From IMG/VR virus record IMGVR_UViG_3300009428_000004, positions 27,018 through 91,017 of that record: DNA of 64,000 bases; one strand, 5' to 3'. Under the pieces are notes generated by a model that did no database searches, was not told the DNA's origin, and saw only the letters and a list, made by a program, of their open reading frames with translations. Positions 5,127 to 40,212 of the stretch are shown here, piece after piece; the first letter of the stretch is position 1, and every line of letters starts with the position of its first letter. This DNA is from a virus. Both the position numbers and the translations under genes were made by a program.

Positions 5127-5302
5127 AGCCCTATTAGACCCCATCCATGATTTGCTATTGCATTAGTTATAATGGCTACGCAAGTTATCATATGTGTAAG
5201 CCACCAAACTGTTCTAATACCTGCTACCGTATTTGCTTGTCTATCAGTTTCACCAACCTTTTCTCCTAGACTCTTAGCCCAGATTCTCCACCATTTACTC
5301 AT
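5123..5302 (-). CDS. small membrane protein, tandem copy 2
   Basis: A 59-residue protein with an N-terminal amphipathic W-x2-W-A-K-S-L-G-E-K segment, the motif A-G-I-R-T and one hydrophobic stretch (about residues 31-50). It shares the pattern W-x2-W-x2-A/S-L-G ... I-R-T with the gene immediately upstream (5299-5469), so the two look like diverged duplicates. The start at 5302 is fixed by an ATGA overlap with that gene. I recall similar small proteins in other marine T4-like phages; function unknown. Confidence 0.75.
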   Translation of the reverse strand: MSKWWRIWAKSLGEKVGETDRQANTVAGIRTVWWLTHMITCVAIITNAIANHGWGLIGL

Positions 5303-21822: not shown

Positions 21823-22884
21823 TTAAGTTACTTTTTTCCATTCAGCCACCTCTAATTTTCCAGAGAGTCCCTGATAGGTGTTCATATCTATAATCATCTC
21901 TATATCTATAGGATTGGTACCATTAAGAACCATATCATTGATATCTTTGACTATCTCCTTCTTAGGGAAGATGCAGACTTTGAAGCCTTTGTCTAGACAT
22001 CTTTCCATACGCTGGACTATCTCTTTATTTCTTGGTTCGTTATCAAACACGAAAACAGCATTCTCTGTGTTCTCTAAACCTCTAGCATTACCATCAGCAC
22101 CTGCCATAGCGACAGCGTTACTCAAGAAGAGACTGTCGATAGGACCTTCTGTAACATAGTACTTCTTGTTAAAGTCAACCTTGTCTAGATTAAACATCTT
22201 AGGCATAGTATCGTCTAGCATTATAGTTATATATCTTAGTTCGTCATCACCAAAAGCTCTAGCATTAAATCCGAACAAATTGCCGCCCTTGTCTATGAAT
22301 GGCATGATCAGTCTAGGACGATCTCTCTCTATTGTAGGGAGCTTCCCAGGTACGATAGAGTTTACCCACTCATTAAACTTTGGCGCATAGTATAATTTAT
22401 ATTGTACCGATGCCGGGATCAGTCGTTTTTGCAAATAAATCTTAGCTTTATGATCATAATTTAGCTGAGAAATCTTTTTAATTTTTAGTAGAGGTGAGCC
22501 TTTCTTACGAAAGTTTGGTGCTTTCATTCTTAGCTTGTCTAACGGCTTTATTGGTTCTTGATGTCTATTCTGAAAGATTTCACGTCTCTGACCTTTCTCT
22601 AAAGCAGAGTCGATCACATATTCATTGAATAGATTGTTGTCGATGAATCTAAGAAAACTACGCATATTGTGTGATGCGTTACAATTATGGCAATAGATGA
22701 TTGCGGTGTTTTCTTTCTCAAGAATCCATCCACGTGCCTTAGTTTTGTTCTTTTGAGAGTCACCACAGATAGGACATCTGAAGTTAGCCCTGTAAGGATT
22801 ATGTGCCTTGACAGTAAATCTCTCTAATCTTACAGAGAGGATACCAGCATATTTTAGATCAGTAATATTCAATATAAACTCCAC
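21823..22884 (-). CDS. 61: DNA primase (gp61)
   Basis: The N-terminal zinc domain is visible (F-R-C-P-I-C-G-D-S and Y-C-H-N-C-N), followed by a TOPRIM-type core with V-T-E-G-P-I-D-S and V-F-V-F-D-N-E-P-R. With gp41 it forms the T4-like primosome. The longest frame starts at GTG 22884 without a ribosome site; TTG 22872 (M-N-I-T-D-L-K-Y) has GGAG six bases upstream and is the likelier start. Confidence 0.9.
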   Translation of the reverse strand: MEFILNITDLKYAGILSVRLERFTVKAHNPYRANFRCPICGDSQKNKTKARGWILEKENTAIIYCHNCNASHNMRSFLRFIDNNLFNEYVIDSALEKGQRREIFQNRHQEPIKPLDKLRMKAPNFRKKGSPLLKIKKISQLNYDHKAKIYLQKRLIPASVQYKLYYAPKFNEWVNSIVPGKLPTIERDRPRLIMPFIDKGGNLFGFNARAFGDDELRYITIMLDDTMPKMFNLDKVDFNKKYYVTEGPIDSLFLSNAVAMAGADGNARGLENTENAVFVFDNEPRNKEIVQRMERCLDKGFKVCIFPKKEIVKDINDMVLNGTNPIDIEMIIDMNTYQGLSGKLEVAEWKKVT

Positions 22885-25749: not shown

Positions 25750-26928
25750 TTATTGAACGTAGCAGTTCAACTCGTACTTCGAACCCATGTTATATACTTG
25801 GATTTGTAAGAACTTTCTTGTTGGCTTGCCGCCCTTCTCTAGTTTGATAGAATATCTGTTTGTCTTATCTTTACTAGGTTTTTTAGGACCAGTAGCGACT
25901 TTATTAGACCAATCGTCCTCATCAACGTCATATCCCTGCTTCTTAGCAACTGCAATAGCTTCTTGCACTGCGGCAGAAAATGTGTTATGAAGTACTTTAT
26001 AGGCTGAAGCTTCTACAGTATACGTTAAATCTTTGCCCTCGTCAAGCTCTAATTCAACTTCTTCCTTAACAATCTTGAAGTGAGTAGCTGGTACAGCCTT
26101 TAAAGCAGGATCTTTCCAATGCTTCATAGCTTTGTTGATTGCTTCGAATGCACTACGTGCCTTGACAGTTACGTTCTGACCCTTCTTTAGCTTATTAACA
26201 GGCTTAACTACACTAATTGTCCAGTTACCCATAGCTTCTACAAGATCAAAAGCTTCGTCTAGTAATACTTCTTCCTTGAGTTGAGCTTTAAGTTTATCAA
26301 GCTTCTTCTGCATAGCAAGCTTCTTCATCTTAACTGAAGAGGTATTACCGAAGAACGTCTTCATGTGCTTCTCAGTTTGATCTATCTGCTTTTGAATCTT
26401 AACTTTATCTACAGAGGCATTCATTGATCCATAGGATTCGTCAAGGTCTTCGTTTACTCTTTTGAGTACCGCTTTCACTTGAGGATGATTAGACAGACCC
26501 TTTTTGATCTTGTCAATAGCTTGAGTTGCGCCAGTCATATCGCCACCTTTGTAGCGTTTGTCTGTAGCAACACCAATTGCCATTTTTATTTCTTTAGGTG
26601 AAAAGCCTTCGTCCATCTGAGTTTCCTCTTTGAAAGTTTTGAGTGTCGTAATCATATCTTTGTATGATTTGCCCATAGCATCTTGCATCTTCATTTTAGA
26701 ATCTGGCTTACGTACCTTAGCAAACTTGTCTAAAGCGATCTTCATGATATTCATAGGCACCTTCTGAGACTTACCGTCACCAAATTTGATAGCTAGATTA
26801 CCACGAACATCCATAGACTTTCTCAACTGCATGACGATATTCATCTTAGCAGAGGCTTTATCTTTGTCTGTTGCAACTAGATCGAAATCAGCTGGATCAA
26901 ATTTAGCTTCGTCTATTACATCAGTCAC
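25750..26928 (-). CDS. probable internal virion protein, 392 aa (GTG start)
   Basis: A Lys-rich, helical protein with G-F-S-P-K-E-I-K-M-A-I-G-V and M-T-G-A-T-Q-A-I-D-K-I-K-K, which I recall from marine T4-like phages. Acidic linkers such as E-E-V-L-L-D-E-A-F and E-V-E-L-E-L-D-E-G separate basic modules; the L-x-E/V-x-E sites in them fit T4 prohead-protease cleavage. The C-terminal module (about residues 300-392) is beta-rich. GTG 26928 has GGAGG seven bases upstream. Confidence 0.7.
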   Translation of the reverse strand: MTDVIDEAKFDPADFDLVATDKDKASAKMNIVMQLRKSMDVRGNLAIKFGDGKSQKVPMNIMKIALDKFAKVRKPDSKMKMQDAMGKSYKDMITTLKTFKEETQMDEGFSPKEIKMAIGVATDKRYKGGDMTGATQAIDKIKKGLSNHPQVKAVLKRVNEDLDESYGSMNASVDKVKIQKQIDQTEKHMKTFFGNTSSVKMKKLAMQKKLDKLKAQLKEEVLLDEAFDLVEAMGNWTISVVKPVNKLKKGQNVTVKARSAFEAINKAMKHWKDPALKAVPATHFKIVKEEVELELDEGKDLTYTVEASAYKVLHNTFSAAVQEAIAVAKKQGYDVDEDDWSNKVATGPKKPSKDKTNRYSIKLEKGGKPTRKFLQIQVYNMGSKYELNCYVQ

Positions 26929-26930
26929 GT

Positions 26931-27788
26931 CTAGTCCTCCAAAGCTTTAGCGATTGCTTTTCTGCGTCTATGTAGATACTTGTCTGACTCATCTTCATCG
27001 CCATCGTTGTCGAGGTCTTTATCTTTACGATCTGTAAACTTCTTCTTGACAGCTTTCTGATCTACATCATCCAAACCTTCTTTAACTTCTTCATGACTGG
27101 CGCACTTGCCTTCGTACACTTCGCTTATCGACTTTTGAACGTCTGCGATTGTTTTACACTTTGCATCACATCCAAGACTTCTCTTTGCGTATGCAATAAT
27201 CTTTGCATCTGGACCAGACATCTCTACGTCATCACCGCCAAAGCTTGAAGAGCCAAGCTTCTTCATCTTGATACCAGCTGGTGCTTTACCAGTGAAAGAT
27301 TTTACAGTGATAGTACCTTCTGACAATTCCTCGTCTTCGTCTTCGTCTTCGACTTTTTTGCCATCTTTCTTAGCATTTTTCTTATCGATTGCTTTCTGAA
27401 GAGCAGGTGGTAAAGTACCCTCTTCTACTTCAGCACTGTCGGGTTCACAGTCTTCTTTTACTGCTTTGTCTTCACTATAGCTCGCTTTTAATGCAGTAGG
27501 CTTATCTGAAACGTCTTTGTCTAACTTGCGCTTCGCTTTTGTTTTAATTTCACCGATTTCAGGAGTAACATCTCCTGCTTTAGGCACTGCTACGTCTCCA
27601 TCAGCTTGGTCTGCTTTGCGCTTACCAGCAGATTCGGATAGTTCTGCGTCTGCTTCTACAGCAGGTGCAAGGTCTACAGCAGGTTCTTCTACAACAGGCG
27701 ATTTAAAACCTTGCTGAGAAAGGGCAGCATCGAATGCATCTGCCATGCCTGCGGGTAATGGGTTAATATCTTTGGCTTTCTTAAACAT
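26931..27788 (-). CDS. acidic/basic virion protein with EF-hand-like motif
   Basis: The 285-residue protein alternates acidic linkers (E-D-E-D-E-D-E-E) with basic blocks. Near the C-terminus, D-K-D-L-D-N-D-G-D-E-D-E-S-D has the spacing of an EF-hand/dockerin calcium loop, followed by K-Y-L-H-R-R-R-K. Four Cys occur between residues 205 and 235. The N-terminus starts M-F-K-K-A-K-D-I-N-P-L-P. A virion or scaffold role is inferred from the late block and composition. Confidence 0.65.
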   Translation of the reverse strand: MFKKAKDINPLPAGMADAFDAALSQQGFKSPVVEEPAVDLAPAVEADAELSESAGKRKADQADGDVAVPKAGDVTPEIGEIKTKAKRKLDKDVSDKPTALKASYSEDKAVKEDCEPDSAEVEEGTLPPALQKAIDKKNAKKDGKKVEDEDEDEELSEGTITVKSFTGKAPAGIKMKKLGSSSFGGDDVEMSGPDAKIIAYAKRSLGCDAKCKTIADVQKSISEVYEGKCASHEEVKEGLDDVDQKAVKKKFTDRKDKDLDNDGDEDESDKYLHRRRKAIAKALED

Positions 27789-27837: not shown

Positions 27838-28167
27838 TCAGTTATCTACTTTTGAACCGGCACGCCACTGATAGCAACTCCAGTACTTCGCTTTCCACTT
27901 GGGTCCTGGACTATCACATCCGTGTCTGGCTCTGAAACTTTTTCTTCTTGCCGGATCGTCTCTTTTGATCTCTGAATTAGGATCGCCAAAGGTTACCTTA
28001 ACTACATTATCTTTATCGTTCTTAACGTAGACTCCGAACTTGCCCTTTGAACCAGTAGGTAATCGAAAAGGATCATTAAGTGTTACCTTACGTCCTTGAT
28101 ACTCACTTTCTTCTGTGACTAGCTCTTCGCAGTTACAAACGTCTAGGAATTTTTGAAAAGACTTCAT
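27838..28167 (-). CDS. late protein with capsid-targeting-like N-terminus, 109 aa
   Basis: The N-terminus M-K-S-F-Q-K-F-L followed by E-E-L-V-T-E-E resembles the T4 capsid-targeting peptide (M-K-T-Y-Q-E-F-I-A-E). The core has K-V-T-L-N-D-P-F-R-L-P, V-K-V-T-F-G-D-P-N and the ending R-R-K-S-F-R-A-R-H-G-C ... W-K-A-K-Y-W-S-C, a Cys-containing module seen in many phage and bacterial proteins (DUF5872-like from memory). It is coupled by ATGA to the next listed gene upstream. Packaging into the head is inferred. Confidence 0.75.
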   Translation of the reverse strand: MKSFQKFLDVCNCEELVTEESEYQGRKVTLNDPFRLPTGSKGKFGVYVKNDKDNVVKVTFGDPNSEIKRDDPARRKSFRARHGCDSPGPKWKAKYWSCYQWRAGSKVDN

Positions 28168-28397
28168 TCATCTTCTCCACTATTCATCATATATCGATGA
28201 GCAGTATTCAAATAATCTGCGGCTTTCGTGATCTTACTTTGAACCCATTCAGGCAAGTTCTCTTCATCTTCAAACATTCCAATCATATGCTCTGCATCTG
28301 AAAGTATGCCTTTAAGCTGAGTCTTAGCCATCTTGCCCTCGTTGTCGTATTCTTTAGAGTTTTTATCTTCCGATACGAATGTCGCAAAAGTTTTCAT
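28164..28397 (-). CDS. small late protein with capsid-targeting-like N-terminus
   Basis: A 77-residue helical protein starting M-K-T-F-A-T-F-V-S-E, which fits the capsid-targeting pattern with V-S-E as candidate cleavage site. The rest has M-A-K-T-Q-L-K-G-I-L and L-P-E-W-V-Q-S-K-I-T-K-A, a pattern I recall as highly conserved in marine T4-like phages. Function unknown; an internal head protein is likely. Confidence 0.75.
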   Translation of the reverse strand: MKTFATFVSEDKNSKEYDNEGKMAKTQLKGILSDAEHMIGMFEDEENLPEWVQSKITKAADYLNTAHRYMMNSGEDE

Positions 28398-28401
28398 CTT
28401 T

Positions 28402-29292
28402 TTATCCTAAAAGTTTTTGAAGTGTAGCAGGACCAGCGACACCATCTGGAGTCAGTCCACTTTTTGTTTGATACTCTTTGATAGCTCTTTTGGTACCTGG
28501 ACCAAATATTCCATCTGCTGTCAAGCCTAGTTTTGCTTGAACTGCTTTGACTGTATCGTTATTATCACCTATTGATATTGTCACATATTCAACAGATCCC
28601 GTTTTCTTAGATGATTTCTTAAGTACAGGCTTCTTACCAGTTAGTAATTCCATTGCACTCTCATAGCGACTAGTGCGATCAGCAAGACCGATATCACCAC
28701 CGTTAATCTTTTTAGTCATCTTAACTATATCGCATTGGTCTGCGATAGCGTTTAACTTAGATGTTTTCCAAAACCAGCAAGCCGACTCGATAGCGCCCTT
28801 TTCAGTGGCTACGTATGCGGCTGCCTTCTCAGCAGTCATCTTAACTGTTTTACCAAACTTGGTATAATTCTCACGACCAGTAAGTTGCTTTAGTCCACGA
28901 CCTCTGAACAACCAACCGTCACCAGATTTTGTGTTGCCCATTTTATACTTACGGAACTCGTCCATGTATACGTAGTTAGCGATCTTCTCTGGGTTACGTG
29001 CGTACTCTTTTGCATTACGCTTAGTTCCACCAGTACCAAAATACCGACCAAACACTCGCTTGAGTGCATCTTCGCTATAGTTTAAATTCTCTTCTAACGA
29101 TCTAAAATTATTAGACTCATGGGCACACTGTGCTATGAATCCTGCTATTCTTTCAGGCGTGTTAATTTCATACTTGGGAAATATTTCCACAATAGCATCA
29201 TACCACATGTCTACCTTATCATTACCAGGTATCATCTGGGCTAGCATTTCTTTCGTGAGTGCGCTATCACTCTTGTTCTTTTTCCAAAACAT
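28402..29292 (-). CDS. endolysin: GH19 muramidase/chitinase domain plus peptidoglycan-binding domain
   Basis: Residues of about 25-215 are a glycoside hydrolase family 19-like domain with catalytic-type Glu59 (A-H-E-S) and Glu68 (S-L-E-E-N-L), G-R-G-x2-Q-L-T-G and N-G-G-D-I-G-L-A-D-R. Residues 232-296 are a PG_binding_1 repeat (V-K-A-V-Q-A-K-L-G, A-D-G-I-F-G-P-G-T). It degrades peptidoglycan. There is no signal peptide, so it needs a holin. It sits between two genes with capsid-targeting-like N-termini, away from the spanin-like pair. Confidence 0.9.
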   Translation of the reverse strand: MFWKKNKSDSALTKEMLAQMIPGNDKVDMWYDAIVEIFPKYEINTPERIAGFIAQCAHESNNFRSLEENLNYSEDALKRVFGRYFGTGGTKRNAKEYARNPEKIANYVYMDEFRKYKMGNTKSGDGWLFRGRGLKQLTGRENYTKFGKTVKMTAEKAAAYVATEKGAIESACWFWKTSKLNAIADQCDIVKMTKKINGGDIGLADRTSRYESAMELLTGKKPVLKKSSKKTGSVEYVTISIGDNNDTVKAVQAKLGLTADGIFGPGTKRAIKEYQTKSGLTPDGVAGPATLQKLLG

Positions 29293-29723
29293 TATTCGTT
29301 TATCCCTTTTGTAAAAGTTTTACTGAAGCTGTAGACGTGCTTCAACAGTTCCTTCACCTTAACATTTGACTGCATAACATCTATACTGCCACCAACATTC
29401 TTAGCCGCTAACCATCTATGGTGTCCATCAATTATATAGTTGTCTGAACTAACAATGAGAGGCTTAGCCTTACCCAAAGTTTTAATGTTAGATATCTTAT
29501 CGACAATTTTGTCTACATTGAAATCACTTTGCGTGGCTTTTAATTTTGTAGCCTTAACGCTCTTCTTCTGAACTCGCACGCCATTCTTCTTAAGATGCAC
29601 TATCAACTCATCATAGTCCTTAGACCTGACTTGCGGCATCTTATCTCTCTTTATTCCGAGAGTGTCTTTAGCATCAGGTCTTTCGACCTTCAACTCAGCG
29701 ATATATGTTCTAAACTTCTTCAT
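29292..29723 (-). CDS. ParB-like nuclease-domain protein with capsid-targeting-like N-terminus
   Basis: The start M-K-K-F-R-T-Y-I-A-E-L matches the T4 capsid-targeting pattern with I-A-E as cleavage site. Residues of about 75-115 form a ParB-like core: K-P-L-I-V-S-S-D-N-Y-I-I-D-G-H-H-R-W-L-A. ParB-like domains bind CTP, and some cleave nucleic acids; the activity here is unknown. ATGA overlap with the 1006-aa gene. Confidence 0.8.
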   Translation of the reverse strand: MKKFRTYIAELKVERPDAKDTLGIKRDKMPQVRSKDYDELIVHLKKNGVRVQKKSVKATKLKATQSDFNVDKIVDKISNIKTLGKAKPLIVSSDNYIIDGHHRWLAAKNVGGSIDVMQSNVKVKELLKHVYSFSKTFTKGINE

Positions 29724-32700
29724 ACTTTAATTACTTTATCTGATGTGCCAAAGTTTTTCTTACGCATGATAGTCTTGTTAACTACTTCATACTCGTCTTT
29801 ATCTTTATTATAGTTGATTACGATAGGCAGATTCAAGTCAGCTTGCATGTCTTTTAATACAGCTTCACTATCTGGATTCTGTCTGATCTCTACTGCTTTT
29901 CTCTTAGCAATTTTCTTAAACACTTTTTGCAACTCTGCCACAGTGATTGCCGGCTTGTTACGTGAATCGTTCATACGATCTGCAAAGTGTCTAGTGAATT
30001 CGATATCGATTTTGAATTTAGCAAGTAGTCGATCACCAAACTTCTCTAGGTCTTGCAACTGCTTCTGCGTAACGTCTTCACTGAACATCTCATCAAATGA
30101 TTCGTTAATACTTTGTCCAGGAGTATCTTTCTTGTAACGCTTAGTAACTTTATCAGTACCTTTGTCTCCAGCTCCACCCTCTTCGGTTACCATCTTCGCT
30201 AATAGCTTAGAGTCAACGTTTTTGTAGCTTCTAGCGATCTGTGCGGCGTAGTAACCTACGTCATGTCGCATACTGCCTTTTGGTCCAGTAGTCTCTTTTT
30301 TCTTTCTAGAGATTAAATCTTTTAGTGTTTTAAGTGCGTGTTGGTATTGTGTTTTATATAGCTTTAGACCTAACTTATCTTTGATCATCTCGGTTGGACT
30401 TTTCTCCATAAATAGATTTTCAAAGGATTCATCTACACTTTCTTTCGGTACACAATTAGGAACTAGCTTGCCGTTTTTCTTCTTCATGCCTTTTTGCTCA
30501 TGAGAGTCCCAACAAGGGTCGTCTTCTTTAATTGATTTGCCTTCGCTGTCGTATCCTGGCTTGCCAGCTTTCTCTTTCTTAGAGATAGCAATTGCGGCTC
30601 TTTGTGCAGGAGATACTGCGCCTTCTTCTAGATCAACTTCTTCTTTACGTACTTTAGCGGCAAGGTCTGCGTCAGCTTTACCCCATGTACCAGATGATTT
30701 AGTAATGAAAGAGTTAACACGTGCAAAGCCCCATTGTTGAGGAGTAGTACCAGGTCTGTGACCAGTTCTCCATGCGGCAATACCTCTGTCATAAACTTTC
30801 TTTAGAACACTCAATGGCATTCCAGACTTCTCTGCTTTCTTTTTTAAACCTTCATTACCCTTCTCTTCGTCTAGTAATACTTGATTAAAGATGTCATTAG
30901 AGGTCTCTTCGATGAAAGATATCAGATCAGCATCACAATCGAACTCTTCATTTCTGGTCTCGGGTCTGTTTATTGAACGAACTTTCTTACGTAATTCACG
31001 TGTCAGTAAACCGTCCATCTCACGCTCATGCTCTCGACTCAGATTATTTCGTTCATCTTTGTGGTGCTTCTTTAGAGTCTTTTCTGCATCAGTATTGATA
31101 GCTATCTCTTCTAATTCTTGAGCTTCTGGAGTCTTTTTCTTGAATGCACGAAATCTAGCGTCTAATTTTATTTTACCGTCTTTCTTAAACATCTGATGAA
31201 ATCTTTGCACTTTAGGAGATTCGAACTCTTCATCGAACTGTTGATTTACTACAAACTCTTCAAAAGTCTCGTTTACTTTACCGTATGTCTCGCACGGAGT
31301 TTTACCACATCCACAGTTTTTTTGCTCTTCAACAGGCTTCTCATGAGTGTATCCCATTTTCTTCATACGAAGATGATCTTCTTCTTTATCAGCTTTGTAA
31401 CTTTTTCCAGTCTTTGGGTCATACATCATATGAGGCTCGAACGCTTCACCATACATTTGATCATATTTTTTAGTGTGCTTCGATGTCTTAGTTTTAGCCT
31501 GTGCATCGCCAGGAGCTGGCTCATATGCGGCAGGATTATCGTCATTCATTTCAGCGCCCTTCTTGAAATGTGCGTCACGTTTTACTTTAGTTGACTTAGC
31601 AAGACCTTTGTGATACACTGCAGGCTGTGTGCCTTTACGATCAGCAATATCTTTATCTTGACCAACACTTGGAGCTTCAAATAGTCTTTCGAATTGCTCG
31701 TTAAACTCCTCATTCTTGCTCTTGCTGTTTAATCTAGCTAGGTCTGCTTTACGCACACTAGGAAGGATCTTCTTAGCAATCTTATCGATAGCTGCCTTCT
31801 TCTTAGAAACTCTCTTGTCAATCATCATCTTTTCTGAGGGAGAAAGTGATGCATACTTTTCGCCTTTCTTACCAGCGATCTTCTTACGAATAATCTTGAT
31901 AGCGGCCTTTCTCGCACGAGACTTCAGCATAGTCATAGTTGCGGCTTTTTTAGACAGACGCTTACGTGCGGCGGCAATCTTGTTTTTATACTTACGCATT
32001 ACAATGCCACGATTACGGCGTTGCTGTACTGTTAGAACTGCTTCGTCTAGTTCCATCTCTTCAGCGATCTTTAATCCACCACGAACCAAATCGTAGATGT
32101 CTTCTGCATCTCTCTGTAATTTCTTAGGTAGTCCAGTTGTGAACTTCTTCATGTCGCCTTGAGATGCCAATAATCTCATTTTAGATGCAGACATGCCCGA
32201 AACGTCATCGGCATCTGGATCACGATCACCAGCAGATACAACTTCAATGTTATCAAACTTGTAGTCTTTACCGTTATATTTATTGAGTAGTTCGTCAAAT
32301 TGCTTGATTCTGTCTGAACCTACAACCAAGATGACTTTAGAGTACTTTGACTGTAGCTCTTGCATGATTTGGATAATAGTCTTGGATTTAGACTTCTCGA
32401 TCACATTGTTGCCGAATGCTTTCTTGGCAAGCATGATCTTATCGTCATACGCCAAAGGATTCTTTTTAGCATCCTGTGTATGAGATATGTAAACTTTTGG
32501 GACTGCGGAAGCTTTACGTGCAACAGCTTTAATCTTGTTGACTAGCTTCTCATGTCCAACAGTGATGGGATTCATTCTGCCCCATCCAAGAACTACAGTC
32601 TTATCGACCGCTTCGTCTAGAGTGGGATTGATATCAATAGTGTTCTTTACTAAAACTTCGTTTTCTTTATCTAACTTAGCTTTAGCCTTTTTCTTGACAA

Positions 32701-32740
32701 CCTTCTTCTCAACAGGTTTAGTGTCTTCTATATCGTCCAT
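29720..32740 (-). CDS. 1006-residue multidomain late polyprotein with nucleotidyltransferase domain
   Basis: Residues 48-230 form a NadM/cytidylyltransferase-like HIGH-type domain: V-L-G-W-G-R-M-N-P-I-T-V-G-H and a later S-G-M-S-A-S-K-M-R. A Lys/Arg-rich segment follows (239-340). Short motifs resembling the capsid-targeting peptide recur at about 343-355 (N-E-E-F-N-E-Q-F), 490-507 (N-E-T-F-E-E-F), 770-779 (D-E-S-F-E-N-L-F-M-E) and 879-888 (N-E-S-F-D-E-M-F-S-E). Between them lie a Cys cluster (C-G-C-G-K-T-P-C), a DUF5824-like module (about 635-700) and a C-terminal module (889-1006, toxin/RelE-like fold possible). I read it as a prohead-protease-processed internal protein. Confidence 0.75.
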   Translation of the reverse strand: MDDIEDTKPVEKKVVKKKAKAKLDKENEVLVKNTIDINPTLDEAVDKTVVLGWGRMNPITVGHEKLVNKIKAVARKASAVPKVYISHTQDAKKNPLAYDDKIMLAKKAFGNNVIEKSKSKTIIQIMQELQSKYSKVILVVGSDRIKQFDELLNKYNGKDYKFDNIEVVSAGDRDPDADDVSGMSASKMRLLASQGDMKKFTTGLPKKLQRDAEDIYDLVRGGLKIAEEMELDEAVLTVQQRRNRGIVMRKYKNKIAAARKRLSKKAATMTMLKSRARKAAIKIIRKKIAGKKGEKYASLSPSEKMMIDKRVSKKKAAIDKIAKKILPSVRKADLARLNSKSKNEEFNEQFERLFEAPSVGQDKDIADRKGTQPAVYHKGLAKSTKVKRDAHFKKGAEMNDDNPAAYEPAPGDAQAKTKTSKHTKKYDQMYGEAFEPHMMYDPKTGKSYKADKEEDHLRMKKMGYTHEKPVEEQKNCGCGKTPCETYGKVNETFEEFVVNQQFDEEFESPKVQRFHQMFKKDGKIKLDARFRAFKKKTPEAQELEEIAINTDAEKTLKKHHKDERNNLSREHEREMDGLLTRELRKKVRSINRPETRNEEFDCDADLISFIEETSNDIFNQVLLDEEKGNEGLKKKAEKSGMPLSVLKKVYDRGIAAWRTGHRPGTTPQQWGFARVNSFITKSSGTWGKADADLAAKVRKEEVDLEEGAVSPAQRAAIAISKKEKAGKPGYDSEGKSIKEDDPCWDSHEQKGMKKKNGKLVPNCVPKESVDESFENLFMEKSPTEMIKDKLGLKLYKTQYQHALKTLKDLISRKKKETTGPKGSMRHDVGYYAAQIARSYKNVDSKLLAKMVTEEGGAGDKGTDKVTKRYKKDTPGQSINESFDEMFSEDVTQKQLQDLEKFGDRLLAKFKIDIEFTRHFADRMNDSRNKPAITVAELQKVFKKIAKRKAVEIRQNPDSEAVLKDMQADLNLPIVINYNKDKDEYEVVNKTIMRKKNFGTSDKVIKV

Positions 32741-32825
32741 TTTTATCCTCTTATCGTAGGTTTACCGTAGTCTAACTACAAATGATATTGTAATAGTCCA
32801 CTAACAAGTGCTAGTGAACTATCTT

Positions 32826-32833
32826 TATTTATA
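32826..32833 (-). promoter_or_regulatory. late promoter TATAAATA for the 1006-aa gene
   Basis: Exact late consensus on the minus strand. An 8-bp hairpin with one G-U (within 32797-32820) follows in the leader. Confidence 0.75.
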
Positions 32834-32844
32834 ATATATGGTTG

Positions 32845-33348
32845 CTATGAATCTGTAGTTGTCGGTGACATATGCTGATTATAAACATCTCTCAACGTTC
32901 TAGCATCTTCTTCTGCGGCATCAGCGTGAGCCTTAGCTTCTTCTAATGCGATATTGGCTGCCAATAGTCTAGCCTCAGCCATTCTAACATCTTCTTCCAT
33001 ACGTTGCAACATACGTGCCATATCTTTGGCTTCTTGAATCTTTGCCGCTTCAACGACAGGATCAACCATAGGCTGTATCTCAGCAAAAACTTCAGATAGA
33101 AGTGGATCGTCCTGAGGCTCTGGTATATCAATCAACTCTTCTGAGAATTCTGGGTGTAATGGATGCTCTGACACCTCAAACTCATAAGCGACATCTTCAG
33201 CTTCCATGTCTTCTTCAATCTTCTTGAGAGTGATAAATTCTTGAAGTTGGGCAATTAGATGAGACTTAACAAGTCTTCTATCCAATTCAATACCAATCGT
33301 TCTTCCATATGATTCTAGATCAGACTTGCTCATTGATTCGAATTCCAT
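32845..33348 (-). CDS. late protein with SAP/LEM-like N-terminus and coiled coil
   Basis: Residues 6-40 (S-K-S-D-L-E-S-Y-G-R-T-I-G-I-E-L-D, K-S-H-L-I-A-Q-L) have the look of a helix-extended-loop-helix or SAP-like module as found in T4-like proteins. The middle is acidic and Pro-rich, and residues 95-160 are a predicted Ala/Glu coiled coil. Probably structural or scaffold-associated. GGAG precedes the ATG. Confidence 0.7.
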   Translation of the reverse strand: MEFESMSKSDLESYGRTIGIELDRRLVKSHLIAQLQEFITLKKIEEDMEAEDVAYEFEVSEHPLHPEFSEELIDIPEPQDDPLLSEVFAEIQPMVDPVVEAAKIQEAKDMARMLQRMEEDVRMAEARLLAANIALEEAKAHADAAEEDARTLRDVYNQHMSPTTTDS

Positions 33349-33351
33349 ATT

Positions 33352-33513
33352 CTACTTCTCCGACTTCATGAATGTCCAGATACCGTATGCTAATCCAGCC
33401 CAGGCTGCGATCTTCACGATACCACCAAATAGAATGATTGCTATGCAACCAGCTACAATAACACCAGCGTCTAAGCTAGTTCTTTCTAAAAATCTTTCTT
33501 TTAACCAATTCAT
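33352..33513 (-). CDS. small membrane protein, 53 aa
   Basis: The protein starts M-N-W-L-K-E-R-F-L-E-R-T-S-L-D and has two hydrophobic stretches in residues 16-48. ATG 33513 has AAAGGAGA at good spacing; the longer frame from 33534 does not. I recall this protein as conserved in marine T4-like phages. It follows a late box and hairpin. Confidence 0.75.
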   Translation of the reverse strand: MNWLKERFLERTSLDAGVIVAGCIAIILFGGIVKIAAWAGLAYGIWTFMKSEK

Positions 33514-33533
33514 AATTATCTCCTTTAAATGCA

Positions 33534-33556
33534 AAAGCAGGCATTAAGCCCGCTTT
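33534..33556 (-). terminator. 9-bp G-C hairpin in the leader of the 53-aa gene
   Basis: Stem 33534-33542 with 33548-33556 (one G-U) and a 5-base loop; a short U run follows on the minus strand. It could stop transcripts from the DUF1127-like genes or attenuate the late transcript. Confidence 0.6.
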
Positions 33557-33575
33557 ATTAGTTGACTCGTACTAT

Positions 33576-33604
33576 TATTTATAATAGCACGAATATGATG
33601 TCAA
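33576..33604 (-). promoter_or_regulatory. overlapping early and late promoter elements
   Basis: A perfect -35 TTGACA (33604-33599) stands 15 bp upstream of TATAAA, which is itself part of an exact late box TATAAATA (33583-33576). Confidence 0.65.
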
Positions 33605-33613
33605 GTGAATTTA

Positions 33614-33778
33614 TTAGTCCTGCATCATAACTCGCTTGGCTTCTTCATGCATTCCCATCTGACTGAGTTGGGCTGCGGCTCTCGCACGACCAACACGCTC
33701 CGTAGACTTGATCCACGCTCTACCAAAAAATCGTAGAGACGCACAGACTGAACAATAAGTGGCTGTTAAAGTACTCAT
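33614..33778 (-). CDS. small DUF1127-like protein, 54 aa
   Basis: The frame includes F-F-G-R-A-W-I-K-S-T-E-R-V-G-R-A-R-A-A-A-Q-L and M-G-M-H-E-E-A, the Arg-rich short-helix layout of YjiS/DUF1127-type proteins. It follows another DUF1127-like gene with an ATGA overlap, so the pair may be duplicates. DUF1127 proteins in bacteria bind RNA or regulators; the phage role is unknown. Confidence 0.6.
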   Translation of the reverse strand: MSTLTATYCSVCASLRFFGRAWIKSTERVGRARAAAQLSQMGMHEEAKRVMMQD

Positions 33779-34017
33779 ATGTCCAATATTCCTTCTGGCA
33801 TTTTATCGTATAAAGGAACTTTTTTACCATTCATGCGTTCTATGATATCATCATAATGCTTATTAGCTATGTAATGTATATCACCTCTGCAAAGTCCAAT
33901 GTCATTCAAGTCTTTATCTGAAAGTCTTGACAATTCTTTTACAGTATCTCTGGCTGCCCAGTGTGCGTTAAATCTAACTCTAATGCCTTTAGCAACTCTA
34001 ATGAATTTTTCAATCAC
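33775..34017 (-). CDS. DUF1127-like protein, 80 aa (GTG start)
   Basis: The core T-V-K-E-L-S-R-L-S-D-K-D-L-N-D-I-G-L-C-R-G-D-I is the DUF1127 signature. I start at GTG 34017: AGGAG lies seven bases upstream of it, while the ATG at 34032 is itself upstream of that site. The late-like box at 34063-34070 precedes it. Small bacterial relatives modulate RNA and phosphate or sugar responses. Confidence 0.8.
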   Translation of the reverse strand: MIEKFIRVAKGIRVRFNAHWAARDTVKELSRLSDKDLNDIGLCRGDIHYIANKHYDDIIERMNGKKVPLYDKMPEGILDI

Positions 34018-34062
34018 AACATTTCTCCTCATATTTGTGCTGTAGCCCTTTGACTACACTAT

Positions 34063-34070
34063 TATTTATG
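34063..34070 (-). promoter_or_regulatory. late-promoter-like box CATAAATA
   Basis: One mismatch to the late consensus, 46 bases upstream of the DUF1127-like GTG. Confidence 0.55.
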
Positions 34071-34129
34071 AGAGAAATGTGTATTTTAGCTTTGCAAGTA
34101 TAGTATACTCGCCATGCACGTGGTGAATT

Positions 34130-35362
34130 CTACTTCTGCCAGCCTTTGATGTACTCTGAATTGAAGTTGGCGTTACTGAACTGCAATCTATCTACCAGCT
34201 TTACTGCGTTCTTGCCCATACGATCAATAGCAACGAAGCCTTCTTGCTCAGTCACTTTGTATCCGTCTGCCGTTTTCAAGAATGTGCCAACGTTCTTAGC
34301 TCTATCAAGTTTACGTATGATAGTCAACTTAGCCTCAACAATCAAATTGTATAGCTCGAATAGCGCAACGATTTGGCTCTTATCAGTATTGGAAAAGTAT
34401 GATAGTATCTCTGTACGTTTAGCGGTCTTCTTTTCTTTACCCTTTTCAGACTTAAGCTTATCAATCTCTTTCTGGTAGTATGCATAGATGAAGTCCATAA
34501 GCTCACTGACAAATGATGCAGGATCTTTGATCTTTTCACCAGCTCGTACTTTCACATTAACAAACGTCTTAACTCTAGTGAGAAGTTCTTCGTTCTCTGT
34601 GATTCCGTCGAAGGTAGACTTTTTAATAGTGTTGAATTTCTTGCCAGCTTGAGATAGAAGTTTTGTTACTGCATCAGTTTCTTTCTGTGTCATAGTGGCA
34701 TCACCACTCATGTCTTTGTAGATAGCGTCTACCGACCAGACGCCTGTCGATTTTTTGAGATTGCTTGCGATCTCTTTTCCAAAACTTGCTGACATTGATT
34801 CAAAAGATTTACCTCTGTATTCAGTGTGCCAAACCACACCGATCTCGGATCTGAGGATTTGTGAAGCAAGCTTGCTTTTCGCTGGTATCGCATAAACAAT
34901 GGTATTAGGATGGAAAGTAATATACGATTCTCCATCAACACTAACCTTTTTGATATCCTTTTTCGCATATAAGAAATCACCCTGTATCACCCCCTTAATA
35001 TTCAATGCTGGCAAGTTCTTTAACGCCAACTTCATTTTTATATTCAAATCACCCTTTGCGATATCATCATCGATATCTTTATTAGTCTTGTATACTTTAG
35101 GATTCTTATTAAAGATACCCTTCTTAGCAACAAAGAACTTGCCATCAGTCGGATCAATACCAGCAAATACTGCTGGTGCTCCATCCCACTTTACAGTCAC
35201 ATTGACCTTAGCTTTAGATTTACCAGCCAACATATCTCGCAATGCTCTTAGGTAGTTGATAGACTCCCTAGCACCATCGACACCTGCGTTCAGCAGATTA
35301 TCTTCGAGGTGTTCCATATGAGTATTCTTGTCTTCAGTCAAAAATGACGATAAGCGTATCAT
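34130..35362 (-). CDS. KxDG nucleotidyltransferase-like protein with capsid-targeting-like N-terminus (DUF6267-like)
   Basis: The N-terminus M-I-R-L-S-S-F-L-T-E-D fits the capsid-targeting pattern (L-T-E site). The motif V-T-V-K-W-D-G-A-P-A-V-F has the spacing of ligase motif I, with the Lys at residue 58 as candidate AMP/GMP acceptor. V-I-Q-G-D-F-L-Y fits motif III, F-H-P-N-T-I-V-Y motif IIIa and G-V-V-W-H-T-E-Y could contain motif IV. I recall the family in marine phages as DUF6267. ATG 35362 has GGAG six bases upstream; the earlier start at 35374 is TTG without a site. Ligase or capping activity is inferred. Confidence 0.75.
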   Translation of the reverse strand: MIRLSSFLTEDKNTHMEHLEDNLLNAGVDGARESINYLRALRDMLAGKSKAKVNVTVKWDGAPAVFAGIDPTDGKFFVAKKGIFNKNPKVYKTNKDIDDDIAKGDLNIKMKLALKNLPALNIKGVIQGDFLYAKKDIKKVSVDGESYITFHPNTIVYAIPAKSKLASQILRSEIGVVWHTEYRGKSFESMSASFGKEIASNLKKSTGVWSVDAIYKDMSGDATMTQKETDAVTKLLSQAGKKFNTIKKSTFDGITENEELLTRVKTFVNVKVRAGEKIKDPASFVSELMDFIYAYYQKEIDKLKSEKGKEKKTAKRTEILSYFSNTDKSQIVALFELYNLIVEAKLTIIRKLDRAKNVGTFLKTADGYKVTEQEGFVAIDRMGKNAVKLVDRLQFSNANFNSEYIKGWQK

Positions 35363-35363
35363 G

Positions 35364-36167
35364 TTATACTCCAAATAACTTTTTTATGTCTTCGGGATTA
35401 TCAAGGCTATACTTAGATTTGATATTTGTTTTTAATCTACCTTGACATCTATATCCAGCACCGACAACACGATAATCTTCGCCTTCAACTTTTCTCGCTT
35501 TACTTCCAGATGGTCCAAGTCTGAACTCGATATTCACAGAGCCTTTATACTCAGGCACATCTAGCTTCAATGGATTACTGCCTAGATAAAACAGTCCTGC
35601 TTTACCAATCTGAATGTAGTACACATTCTTTCTATTGTATGCTTTTGCGATAGTTCTTGCTGAATCAAAAGACTGAATGGTATTCATCTTCGCAAGATAT
35701 CCAGCTTTCTGTGCCGCTGACCATGCTTCTTTTGTTACTGATCCAAATGGAATAGTATACGGAATCTTTTTATGTAATGCTAGTGGCTCTTGCTTACGAA
35801 CGAAGTTGACCCAATCCTTTAGTGCCTTGTCTTGCTTCTTAGCCGCTTCTATAAAGAAGGGAATAGCGTCTTCGTCTACCGCATCGGGCTTGACTAGCGT
35901 GTGTGTCTTGTTTAACGTATCAATGCGAATAGAAGTACCACCCATTTGAGCGTTCTTATCCAGCTTGATTTCGATATTGAATTCTTTACCGTTATATAAT
36001 GCTTCAATATCACCTGCGCCTTGGTTACTGTATCCTGCGCCTGGCTTACTTCCAACATTTAGTCCTTCAATGCCCGCAGACTTCATCGCATCGAAAACTT
36101 TCTTCTCGTATGCTAGTCCCTTAGCGCCAACGCTTTCGGTAATAAAACTTTTAAATCTGACAGTCAT
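35364..36167 (-). CDS. PD-(D/E)XK nuclease-like protein with capsid-targeting-like N-terminus
   Basis: The N-terminus M-T-V-R-F-K-S-F-I-T-E-S has the same pattern (I-T-E site). Y-E-K-K-V-F-D-A, G-A-G-D-I-E-A-L-Y and F-N-I-E-I-K-L give a helix Glu, the catalytic-type Asp and E-x-K of a restriction-endonuclease fold. The C-terminal half is basic and Tyr-rich. It is coupled by ATGA to the next upstream gene. Nuclease activity on host or incoming DNA is inferred. Confidence 0.7.
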   Translation of the reverse strand: MTVRFKSFITESVGAKGLAYEKKVFDAMKSAGIEGLNVGSKPGAGYSNQGAGDIEALYNGKEFNIEIKLDKNAQMGGTSIRIDTLNKTHTLVKPDAVDEDAIPFFIEAAKKQDKALKDWVNFVRKQEPLALHKKIPYTIPFGSVTKEAWSAAQKAGYLAKMNTIQSFDSARTIAKAYNRKNVYYIQIGKAGLFYLGSNPLKLDVPEYKGSVNIEFRLGPSGSKARKVEGEDYRVVGAGYRCQGRLKTNIKSKYSLDNPEDIKKLFGV

Positions 36168-37228
36168 TTTTTAACCTTAAATTTTGTATCGTTTGGATAT
36201 TCACCAGCTTTAGAATTTCTCAACTCAATCACATAATCCTCAACGTCATTGCTACACAATATAGTGATCTGCTTGGACGTTTTTGTAGGATACCTTATGC
36301 TATTAACTCGTATATTTTTAGATAGCTTATCCAACTTCGTTTTTCCTAACCAGAAGACTTTCCATCCACTAGTTAATCGTCTCACATAGAAGTAGTTCAT
36401 ACCCCAGGCTCTGTTGAAAATCTTTTCGATTTCTCTTGCGTTAACTCTAGAGACTGAAAGCTTTGGTCTACCTATACTAGCAGTATTTATATTACCTCGT
36501 TCATCGAACCCCGATTGGACTTTATTCAAGTCTACGCCAAAAGTGTTTAAGAATGTAGCACCTTCAGAATCTGGCTGAAGATTTCCTTCTTTATCAAAGA
36601 GTGATGCGGCACCAGAGTACGAACTAAACGTATTGCCTTTAATATCTTTAAGTGAGATGTACCAAGTATTTCTTTGAGAATCAGTGAGAATGATGTCTCC
36701 AATAATAGCACCCAAATCTGCAATGGGAACGCCTTCTTTCTTAGTAGCACCACGTCTCTGCGTAGCACTCACTATCTCTGAACTAGCAAATGGAGCGTGT
36801 GATTCGTTCATCATGGTAACTACTTTAGCTATCTCAGAGTTGCCTCTGGTCTTAAAGTAATCGTCTAGATTTGTCACTGTGCGTGTTTCAAACCTTTCGC
36901 CAGCATTCGCACCACGAGCAATGATTATATCAAACATTTGCCTATCAAAGATGAAAGAGTAACTAGGAAACTTAGAACTGTTTGGAGATATTTCATTGTA
37001 CTTGATCTGCGTAATCTTAGGGTCTTGTCTTAGCTTATTACTCAGATGTGCGATACACGCTTTACTTGTATCTAGTTCTTTGTTTATGAGATTTAACCTG
37101 TACTCTCGATAGCGTTTATCATTAGAACCTGGTTTGCCTTTTGGAAACCGAGCGTTAAGCTCATAGTTCTTATTTTTTACCATAGAGTTCAGATTCTCTC
37201 CAAGTTTTTGATATACTTCTGCGCTCAT
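36164..37228 (-). CDS. late hypothetical protein, possible second nuclease-like fold
   Basis: A 354-residue basic soluble protein. A-N-A-G-E-R-F-E-T, G-D-I-I-L-T-D and W-Y-I-S-L-K-D-I-K-G are placed like the helix Glu, Asp and x-x-K of a restriction-endonuclease fold, similar in order to the adjacent gene, but the central Glu is Ser here. It lacks a capsid-targeting-like start (M-S-A-E-V-Y-Q-K). It might be the partner of the 267-aa protein. Confidence 0.6.
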   Translation of the reverse strand: MSAEVYQKLGENLNSMVKNKNYELNARFPKGKPGSNDKRYREYRLNLINKELDTSKACIAHLSNKLRQDPKITQIKYNEISPNSSKFPSYSFIFDRQMFDIIIARGANAGERFETRTVTNLDDYFKTRGNSEIAKVVTMMNESHAPFASSEIVSATQRRGATKKEGVPIADLGAIIGDIILTDSQRNTWYISLKDIKGNTFSSYSGAASLFDKEGNLQPDSEGATFLNTFGVDLNKVQSGFDERGNINTASIGRPKLSVSRVNAREIEKIFNRAWGMNYFYVRRLTSGWKVFWLGKTKLDKLSKNIRVNSIRYPTKTSKQITILCSNDVEDYVIELRNSKAGEYPNDTKFKVKK

Positions 37229-38775: not shown

Positions 38776-40212
38776 TTACTTTAGTTCACCAAAGTCTGGC
38801 TTACTTTTTGTTTTGTTTTGACGGTATGATAAGATATTATCTTTGTTCTCGCCCTTCTCTGCTTTCATTCTATCACCGAAAGAACCCTTATCTGCAACAG
38901 GTGTACTAGAATCATTAACTAGATCCTGTGCGCTATCTTCCGCATCAAATAACTTCATCTTAGACCTATCAACACCGATGACAAATCTCTTAAGGTAATT
39001 GGTATCACCCCATCGATTTTTCAACTGCTTGACCATCAACTGTCCAAGACCCTCAAGTTCTTCTGTAGATATCAAGCCAAACATAAAGTCAGCAGTAGCA
39101 GGTAGACCAAAAGACTCAGAAGTATCTTCGAGGTTTAAGTCTGAACTACTGTAACCAGTACGAGTTGTTTGAGTAGCACTCAGAATGGGAACGTTGAATT
39201 CGACTGCAAGACCACGAAGTTCTTCAGCAATCGCTTTGATCAACGTGTAAGAGTTGACATTAGCACCAGCTTTCATCCTAGAACTTGTACATATATTTAG
39301 ATAATCGATGTACACAATATCAGGAACAAAGTTCTTCTTTAGCTTTAACTCATTTAACAAGTGTCTAAAATGTGCAGAACCAGCACTGGCAGTAGGATAC
39401 TCTTTAACGATCAACTTACCAGTAGTCTTTGCTTTGACTCTACCGATACGCTTCATGAATACATCCTTAGGCATATCTTGTAGACTATCCATAGTAGCAT
39501 TCATTAAGTTAGCATCGATACGTTCAGATATTTTCTCTTCAGCCATTTCCATAGTGATATACAAAACATTCTTACCATCCATAAGATTGGCTGCCGCACA
39601 ATGCGTCATAAACAATGTCTTACCAACACCAGTACCTGCTAGACAGATACTCAAAGACTTTCTAGATAAACCACCTTTAGTGATCTTATTAAGTAGATCG
39701 AGATCAAAGGGTACCTTATCTTCTTTACTATGATAAAACTCATATCGACTTTCAGTGTCTTCTAGGAAGTCATGACCAATAGCTTGATCGAATGACACAC
39801 CTAAAGCTTTAGATAGGAGATCAGGAATAGACCCCTTATCTAGTTCTTTGTGATTACCATCTAGCACTAGAATAGACTCACGCACTGCATTAAAGACTGC
39901 TTTATCTTGGCAGAACTTCTCTGTCTTATCTACAATCCAGTCAAGATCAGTTTTATGATCATACTCTAAACCGTCAATCAAACTTACGATTTGTTGATAC
40001 TGATCATCGCTGATATTGTCTTTCTCTTCGATAGCGATACGTAAGGCTTCTCTAGTAGGAATACCGTTGTAATCTTCGATATACTTCAGAATAGACCTGT
40101 ACACCATTTTGTCACTGAAGTCGCCAAAGTATTCTTCAGTTAGAAAGGGTATGACTCTCCGCATGTAATCTTCATTGTGTAATAATCCCGCAAGTACGGT
40201 ATTCTCAATCAT
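38776..40212 (-). CDS. 41: replicative DNA helicase (gp41, DnaB-like)
   Basis: The RecA-type core has Walker A G-T-G-V-G-K-T (193-199), Walker B I-V-Y-I-D-Y-L and S-A-T-Q-T-T-R as the glutamine switch. The N-terminal 150 residues are the helical DnaB-type domain. gp41 unwinds the fork ahead of gp43 and partners gp61 primase. It follows uvsX by two bases. Confidence 0.95.
   Translation of the reverse strand: MIENTVLAGLLHNEDYMRRVIPFLTEEYFGDFSDKMVYRSILKYIEDYNGIPTREALRIAIEEKDNISDDQYQQIVSLIDGLEYDHKTDLDWIVDKTEKFCQDKAVFNAVRESILVLDGNHKELDKGSIPDLLSKALGVSFDQAIGHDFLEDTESRYEFYHSKEDKVPFDLDLLNKITKGGLSRKSLSICLAGTGVGKTLFMTHCAAANLMDGKNVLYITMEMAEEKISERIDANLMNATMDSLQDMPKDVFMKRIGRVKAKTTGKLIVKEYPTASAGSAHFRHLLNELKLKKNFVPDIVYIDYLNICTSSRMKAGANVNSYTLIKAIAEELRGLAVEFNVPILSATQTTRTGYSSSDLNLEDTSESFGLPATADFMFGLISTEELEGLGQLMVKQLKNRWGDTNYLKRFVIGVDRSKMKLFDAEDSAQDLVNDSSTPVADKGSFGDRMKAEKGENKDNILSYRQNKTKSKPDFGELK

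Follow-up and report, generated by a model that had tools for sequence, protein, structure and literature searches.

A candidate head-cargo locus bearing a T4-like capsid-targeting tag between gp41 and gp61 of a T4-like marine phage

The window analyzed here is a stretch of 64,000 nucleotides, bases 27018-91017 of the 91-kb IMG/VR record IMGVR_UViG_3300009428_000004, which derives from a T4-like phage: gp43, uvsX, gp41, gp61, gp46/47, gp55, uvsW, uvsY, the tail tube and the end of gp23 are all recognizable in the record. Between gp41 (38776-40212) and gp61 (21823-22884) lies an interval, entirely on the minus strand, that contains five genes whose products begin with similar short peptides in front of unrelated bodies (Table 1). 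A first-pass annotation had read these as consecutive late genes sharing a T4-like capsid-targeting N terminus. We confirmed open reading frames (ORFs) at all five positions; the ORF at 34130-35362 lies within one of 414 amino acids (aa) that includes an upstream TTG, and translation probably begins at the ATG at 35362. The five genes do not form an uninterrupted run, since an endolysin gene, a gene for a protein of 1006 aa and small ORFs intervene. DNA comparison with annotated phages returned only a short match to gp41 and a tblastn search with the nuclease-like protein (35364-36167) returned no match, and so we drew relatives from viral contigs. Scans with NCBIfam and PADLOC gave weak matches only.

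In the capsid-targeting sequence (CTS) of T4 internal protein IPIII, mutations at residues 4 and 7 affect targeting and mutations at residues 8 and 10 affect processing, and the prohead protease gp21 cleaves after L/I-x-E (PMC9026906). We used the short pattern M-x(1-3)-[FYL]-x-x-[FY]-[ILV]-x-E, took expected counts from shuffled first residues and also read alternative starts in the gene scans. Four of the five window proteins match exactly (MKTFATFVSE, MKKFRTYIAE, MIRLSSFLTE and MTVRFKSFITE). The fifth, of 109 aa (27838-28167), starts MKSFQKFLDV; it lacks Glu at position 10 and carries F4, F7 and V17-T18-E19 instead. This is the spacing of T4 IPI (MKTFKEF...ITE19, with F4 and F7 followed by I17-T18-E19), and an expression written for it retrieved only IPI in T4 and only the 109-aa protein in the window's record. 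The proposal of one N-terminal pattern on all five proteins therefore holds exactly for four, while the fifth fits the IPI form. Within the first 10 to 19 residues, positions 4 and 7 are hydrophobic or aromatic in all five, shifted by one residue in the nuclease-like protein. Sites of the gp21 type ([LI]-x-E) fall at residues 8-10 in four proteins (at 9-11 in one of them and as V-x-E in another) and at residues 17-19, again as V-x-E, in the 109-aa protein. The residues shared by the window tags are thus the four functional positions of T4 IPIII. AlphaFold assigns no confident structure to the tag in the two largest proteins with a single tag (residues 1-13 and 1-17).

Across the record, 5 of 155 called genes match the short pattern, against 0.3 expected (Poisson P = 1.6e-5). 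The matches are concentrated in the 22.9-38.1 kb locus (4/19 genes, compared with 1/136 elsewhere; Fisher P = 8e-4, for a locus picked post hoc). Independent relative G007 has 4 matches among 60 distinct genes against 0.13 expected, and relative G004 has 3 against 0.2. As a positive control we scanned the 267 called genes of T4, in which the pattern matched IPII, IPIII and gene 61.1 only. The exact pattern is absent from the tail, baseplate and replication genes of the window's record, which argues against a start common to late genes in general; the number of matches exceeds that given by shuffled N termini. The codons of the tag differ among the five window starts, which places the likeness at the level of protein and not of a DNA repeat. 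The shared start could instead stem from exchange of DNA, or from a translation start element that the genes have in common, without any protein signal, given that the genes of the locus are packed and are swapped as cassettes. The sequences upstream of the five starts also differ, however, and the same peptide occurs inside ORFs far from any start, so that we give this explanation hardly any weight; a DNA-level repeat or shared start element was rejected on the codon differences.

Further tag-like starts were noted outside the window. In the same record, L040:2998-3702 encodes a P-loop kinase-like protein, a sixth tagged gene product, that begins MLTFENYLKEE (VLTFENYLKEE, from a GTG start); a TATAAATA box lies upstream, and its PHROG relatives include parts of far longer proteins. 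T4 gene 61.1 (NC_000866:18966-19130, L270) begins MKTFKEFIKEDMVAGD (MKTFKEFIKE) and may encode an unrecognized internal protein. S-SZBM1 gp191 (L103:37312-37629) and S-SCSM1 gp30 (L108:9216-9536) are homologous small proteins (MKSFKSFLSESVNISGDF and MKTFKQFMSESVNISGDF) that adjoin virion structural genes and form a further tag-bearing family.

Published virion proteomics of cyanophages supports the tag independently; our statements on virion detection refer to the main text of the reports cited. Non-structural proteins reported in the S-CREM2 virion are an S-adenosylmethionine (SAM) hydrolase, an APH-like kinase, a Cas9-like nuclease, a cytidylyltransferase, two endolysins and hypothetical proteins (PMC10665884). 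Among these detected proteins, the SAM hydrolase begins MKDFDSFLEE, the kinase MKRFDAFLTE, gp13 MKDLHSFLTE and the cytidylyltransferase MKNFSSFLTEA, and FASFMAE occupies residues 19-25 of the Cas9-like protein. Over 218 of the coding sequences of S-CREM2, the tag was present on 4 of the 27 detected non-structural proteins and on 1 of 167 undetected proteins (Fisher P = 0.0014).

Cytidylyltransferase-like proteins have likewise been reported in virions of S-SM1 (PMC3037559), S-SZBM1 (PMC9146016) and S-SCSM1 (PMC9602691), where they begin MKKFSAFLNEA, MRFRQFIIEA and MKSFLQFLKEA, so that all four virion-detected cytidylyltransferases examined are tagged. An alignment of five such proteins shows no variation at M1, F4, F7, E10 and A11, after which residue 85 is the first to be invariant again. 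Among marine viral contigs, in a scan that favors relatives of S-SM1, 71 of 74 members carry the tag at positions 4, 7, 8 and 10, with 55 distinct N termini. The gene lies between gp41 and gp61 in S-SM1, S-SZBM1 and S-SCSM1, as in the window, and follows gp55 in S-CREM2. These observations also bear on whether the likeness is generic, short, hydrophobic, lysine-rich starts being common in phage proteins. The motif is indeed short, its match in T4 gene 61.1 is of unknown meaning and one or two tagged S-CREM2 proteins were undetected in the virion. With shuffled N termini giving 0.1-0.7 matches per genome, the pattern kept at four positions across a family and the tag enriched among virion-detected proteins, we nevertheless regard chance as highly improbable.

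The related phages also carry the same tag on unrelated domains (DUF6267, FTRHF, YQGRKV and cytidylyltransferase), as the first-pass annotation had predicted, and tag and module can be separated. DUF6267 is tagged in the window (FLTE/DKNTHMEHLED, where the slash marks the predicted cut), in phage DLP6 (FLAE/SKD) and in G007; it stands behind an internal tag in L034 (KLSFESFLAE/DKGGKNLHLEHLED); and it is untagged in S-SZBM1 and P-HM1, where it starts MAKNTHLEHLED and MANVTQLKHLEHIED. The tag terminates where the untagged DUF6267 homologue starts. Of the nuclease-like domain, the window has a tagged version and G003 an internal one (NTFSEYFYE/SLNLGGLEYE). The YQGRKV module, seen in 51 distinct contexts, occurs mostly as small genes with MK-x-F-type starts but is also fused into several longer proteins, and in L022 it follows a perfect internal tag (KYSFASFITE/AEYQGRKV). 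Exact CTS copies thus stand at fusion junctions in L022 (SFASFITE/AE), L034 (SFESFLAE/D) and L026 (NTFSEYFYE/S), and the domains fused behind them are tagged genes elsewhere. One and the same module can be N-terminally tagged, internally tagged or untagged, as seen for DUF6267, the nuclease, YQGRKV, FTRHF and KGTQP.

A Peptidase_S77 protein of the gp21 type and gp23 are present in seven of eight relatives. Where T4 gp23 has FLTE/A, the gp23 propeptides of the relatives have SLLNE/A, SLLSE/A or QLTE/A, and we infer that the cut position in their capsid protein (L-x-E/A) is homologous to that of T4. The end of the tag resembles this L-x-E/A cleavage site inferred for the major capsid protein of the close relatives. 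As to expression, TATAAATA boxes precede head and tail genes of relative L074, one such late-type box lies upstream of the 1006-aa gene (Table 1), and GATAAATA variants precede 36164-37228 and 26931-27788. The TATAAATA box is mildly enriched (11 found, 5.4 expected), whereas TAAATA alone is uninformative (49 found, 68 expected).

Taken together, the functional residues, the virion proteomics of homologues, the likeness to the capsid-protein site, the existence of tagged and untagged versions of one domain and the late-type promoters bear out the idea that unrelated bodies carry a modular capsid-targeting tag like that of T4. We think it very likely that the tag functions as a CTS, and we put at roughly 0.8 the probability that the gp41-gp61 interval of this T4-like marine phage serves as a head-cargo locus with an exchangeable tag. 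Judging from homologues, the tagged proteins would with good confidence be found in the mature head; by analogy with T4, their N-terminal tags would likely be cleaved and, on balance, injection into the host may well follow.

Several points weigh against this interpretation. Most of the unknown proteins detected in S-CREM2 virions are untagged, so the tag is not required for virion presence. The virion evidence comes from tagged homologues in four cyanophages. The main-text proteomics consists of tryptic peptide counts without mapping of N termini, and the authors of one report allow that such virion proteins could be carry-over (PMC9602691). The absence of an untagged DUF6267 homologue from the detected virion proteins is recorded for one phage (gp141 of S-SZBM1), which makes it weak evidence for the role of the tag. 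The window's record stops before gp21, so that the protease is visible in relatives only, and relative G001 has no exact match to the pattern, only looser ones (MAFASFSQFLVEE and MKTFKLFLER).

The tagged proteins might instead be prohead core or assembly factors that join the scaffold through the tag and work within the prohead (on packaged DNA, for instance), without delivery to the host. A core gene adjoining gp21 in G004 and G005 is similarly tagged, beginning MKSFKEMLAE/T, a gene of the phrog_613 head-protein family lies inside the locus, and virion presence does not prove injection. The bodies, however, comprise enzymes and small basic proteins, which differ among close relatives, unlike conserved assembly parts, and the tagged T4 models IPI and Alt are injected (PMC3012670, PMC5512222); we therefore consider a purely assembly-related role unlikely.

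The gene for the 1006-aa protein lies among the tagged genes. Its modules are a cytidylyltransferase, a very basic QQRR module (net charge +28 over 122 aa), KGTQP, TDAEK, DUF5824, CWDSH and a C-terminal FTRHF module. Strict internal CTS-like motifs occur four times, against 0.34 expected, and [ND]E[EST]F repeats six times, against 0.06 expected. KGTQP is a gene of its own in G003 (L069:1956-2519), starting MDFNSLYEKA, and FTRHF is a tagged gene of its own in L020 (MISFKQHLQE/A) and L059 (MLTFKEHLQE/A). Homologues with very similar neighbor genes range from 772 to 1073 aa, a more distant one has 1482 aa, and the differences in length correspond to modules lost or gained. For ten module types, [ILVMF]xE occurred within the last ten residues upstream in 63 of 88 distinct contexts, compared with 27 expected under a composition-preserving shuffle. 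The starts of the separate genes at module boundaries and the excess of L-x-E led us to suggest cleavage of the chain inside the prohead, and judging from its sequence the protein is probably a cargo polyprotein processed by the prohead protease. We also slightly favor a more specific model in which several internal CTS copies would anchor one chain in the scaffold, the protease would yield separate injected proteins and cargo would be gained by insertion of modules behind a tag. Counting against the polyprotein, the start of the 1006-aa protein lacks a tag, and the P values for the junctions are too small, because the contexts share ancestry.

Alternatively, the 1006-aa protein could be delivered whole as a polyvalent protein, with the internal E-x-F/L-x-E motifs serving as flexible acidic linkers. 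Phage-injected polyvalent proteins with 2-15 domains are known (PMC5512222), several domains of the 1006-aa protein also occur singly and shuffled, as in that class, and E-rich linkers make a chance L-x-E likelier. The excess of junction sites persists under shuffles that preserve composition, however, and exact CTS copies stand at junctions of fused domains that are tagged elsewhere (L022, L034 and L026). Release of polyvalent proteins is, moreover, thought to occur via embedded peptidases (PMC5512222), and Pfam and PHROG scans of the 1006-aa protein found neither a peptidase domain nor typical polyvalent domains, so that it is not a classic polyvalent protein. Whole delivery therefore seems to us rather unlikely.

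Table 1. Genes, tags and candidate processing elements of the gp41-gp61 interval (window coordinates; a slash marks a predicted cut)
Feature	Position	Strand	Basis
109-aa YQGRKV-module protein	27838..28167	minus	589 relatives among 600 matched stretches
IPI-type long tag MKSFQKFLDVCNCEELVTE, then predicted cut	28111..28167	minus	F4, F7, E19 spacing as in T4 IPI
77-aa tagged protein without confident family	28164..28397	minus	Pfam/PHROG
CTS-like N-terminal tag MKTFATFVSE of the 77-aa protein	28368..28397	minus	Pattern match
Untagged GH19-like endolysin with peptidoglycan-binding domain, among cargo genes	28402..29292	minus	Pfam/PHROG
143-aa ParB-like (GHHR) candidate cargo protein	29292..29723	minus	phrog_2859 E=7e-28, several ParB-like PHROGs; Pfam weak
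CTS-like N-terminal tag MKKFRTYIAE	29694..29723	minus	Pattern match
1006-aa proposed cargo polyprotein	29720..32740	minus	Pfam/PHROG; module shuffling in relatives
Internal CTS-like element NESFDEMFSE before C-terminal FTRHF module	30077..30106	minus	FTRHF is a tagged gene elsewhere
Internal CTS-like element DESFENLFME	30404..30433	minus	Motif count
Internal CTS-like element NEEFDCDADLISFIEE before DUF5824 module	30905..30952	minus	[ILVMF]xE ahead of DUF5824 in 9/9 distinct contexts
Internal CTS-like element NETFEEFVVNQQFDEEFE	31220..31273	minus	[ND]E[EST]F repeat
Internal CTS-like element NEEFNEQFERLFE/AP before KGTQP module	31676..31714	minus	KGTQP is a separate gene in G003
Predicted processing site LDE/A before basic QQRR module	32042..32050	minus	L-x-E before QQR in 8/12 distinct contexts (the QQR anchor also picks up a few unrelated matches)
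Predicted processing site LDE/A before cytidylyltransferase module	32612..32620	minus	L-x-E-A kept in close relatives
T4-late-type promoter TATAAATA, 93 nucleotides upstream of the 1006-aa gene	32826..32833	minus	Box also before gp23, gp22 and gp18 in L074
410-aa DUF6267 candidate cargo protein, KWDG/EGFV/KLV motifs	34130..35362	minus	Pfam DUF6267 E=2e-112
CTS-like N-terminal tag MIRLSSFLTE	35333..35362	minus	Pattern; untagged homologues start about the residue after the tag
267-aa PD-(D/E)XK-like candidate cargo protein, D53, E66-x-K68	35364..36167	minus	14-homologue alignment; AlphaFold2 mean predicted local distance difference test score (pLDDT) 84
CTS-like N-terminal tag MTVRFKSFITE of the nuclease-like protein	36135..36167	minus	Exact T4 pattern; AlphaFold2 residues 1-13 pLDDT <50

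The identities first suggested for the bodies behind the tags (a KxDG nucleotidyltransferase-like fold, a PD-(D/E)XK-like nuclease and a ParB-like domain) held up at the level of motifs and less well at the level of folds. In an alignment of six DUF6267 homologues, K58, D60 and G61, E374, G375 and V377 (EG(F/Y)V) and K388 are invariant. We take KxDG to be motif I, EGxV motif IV and K388 the motif V lysine of a covalent nucleotidyltransferase or ligase, all of which are present in the DUF6267 protein. The model of this protein has a pLDDT of 64, the fold search was uninformative, with no meaningful match in the PDB, and PDB sequence searches gave nothing useful; the motifs are what points to a KxDG fold. 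In the nuclease-like protein, the D53, E66 and K68 of the PD-(D/E)XK core are invariant across 14 homologues, and Hjc/RecU resolvases recur as a coherent group in Foldseek, with E > 0.1 over about 65 aligned residues; the conserved D-ExK and this weak fold match tentatively suggest a nuclease. Weak profile matches and motifs hint, equally tentatively, at a ParB-like domain in the 143-aa protein, and a homologue of this region is fused to a cytidylyltransferase in Stenotrophomonas phage DLP6, in a protein of 722 aa.

In the mechanism that we propose, the F-x-x-F half of the tag would bind the prohead scaffold core during head assembly and so carry the enzyme inside. A gp21-type prohead protease would then cut after L-x-E, removing the N-terminal tags and splitting the 1006-aa protein into its modules. 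The freed proteins would remain with the DNA, at least a part of them entering the next cell with it and acting before phage gene expression. Given the nucleotidyltransferase, nuclease-like and ParB-like domains among the bodies, their likely jobs would be DNA protection, the countering of host defenses or the adjustment of nucleotide or nicotinamide adenine dinucleotide (NAD) metabolism. In T4, the gp41-gp61 interval holds dmd, 61.2/adfA and tifA and has been described as a possible anti-toxin-antitoxin island (PMC9391042), tag-pattern gene 61.1 also lies inside it, and the T4 internal proteins are diverse defense proteins united only by a conserved CTS (PMC3012670). These features make counter-defense or early takeover the most natural role, and counter-defense as the main role is put forward tentatively, as a possibility that falls somewhat short of even odds.

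Two genes downstream of the cargo genes, 25750-26928 and 26931-27788, encode charged proteins with repeated E-x-F and L-x-E motifs that may be additional processed head proteins; the C terminus of the former is similar to that of L060:18447-19337 (YNMGSKYELN). Elsewhere in the record, outside the window, L040:6277-12749 contains a curli-type export set with CsgG (E=4e-54), CsgF (2e-13), two curlin-repeat proteins and a CHASE2-guanylate cyclase, with a counterpart in G001 (L061:3194-9071). At L040:2262-4947 a heme oxygenase gene (E=5e-17) adjoins one for an aminotransferase-fold enzyme resembling 5-aminolevulinate synthase, a pair that may represent phage tetrapyrrole metabolism genes. Fe-S assembly proteins (IscA-like and NifU/IscU-like) are encoded at window positions 4800-5144 and at L040:14109-14510, and a 380-aa protein at window positions 14449-15591 reads like serine hydroxymethyltransferase.

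The principle of one tag on many bodies is already known in T-even phages. As far as the searchable literature shows, two things are new: the principle reaches to enzymes of marine T4-like phages, in agreement with proteomics, and copies of the tag inside a long protein point to a cargo polyprotein. In that literature, which excludes subscription papers, we found no paper that links capsid targeting with cyanophages, save a review in which cyanophages appear only in the reference list, and none that names DUF6267. The T4 tag has been described on a handful of small inhibitor proteins, and it has been proposed that T4-like phages use it generally as a loading device (PMC9026906). That proposal can now be tested, the same residues being conserved on enzymes of phages that are very common in the ocean. 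The tag offers a sequence rule for finding proteins carried into cells at infection, many of them without known function, and a reason for the presence of cytidylyltransferase, kinase, SAM hydrolase and Cas9-like nuclease in cyanophage virions. Should the predicted cuts in the polyprotein take place, one gene would suffice to deliver a fixed set of injected proteins.

The closest known system is that of T4 IPI, IPII, IPIII and Alt, which resembles the window locus in the tag positions (4, 7, 8 and 10, or E19 in the IPI form), in the unrelated bodies behind one tag, both small basic and enzymatic, in a protease site of the same type as that of the phage's own capsid protein and in the late-type promoters. 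The window cargo differs in including predicted enzymes of other families, in lying between gp41 and gp61 and in including a 1006-aa protein with internal tag copies, a T4 counterpart of which we did not find described in the literature. Polyvalent proteins (Iyer, Burroughs and Aravind 2017, PMC5512222) share with the 1006-aa protein many domains per chain, domain shuffling, ParB-like domains and probable packaging and injection; theirs are thought to be freed by embedded peptidases, whereas the window junctions resemble prohead-protease sites. They are reported there to be scarce in cyanobacterial lineages, and that paper does not use the word cyanophage. Among the ejection proteins of SPN3US and phiKZ, the prohead protease similarly strips N-terminal propeptides off many internal proteins, but several of these propeptides exceed 100 residues and they have no 10-residue F-x-x-F-L-x-E tag (PMC5694885). 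In P1 DarB, a short N-terminal signal suffices to bring a reporter into the phage head; that signal was mapped to the first 30 residues of one protein of a phage without a T4-type scaffold, and it was not demonstrated to act as a tag common to several proteins with a protease site of the T4 type (PMC9024508). Finally, the cytidylyltransferase/NMNAT-like virion proteins of cyanophages, for which we found neither a tag nor a packaging route mentioned in the reports (PMC3037559, PMC10665884, PMC9146016, PMC9602691), are homologues of the window module, lie in the same interval in three of four phages and are tagged in all four, whereas the window enzyme forms part of a multi-module protein.

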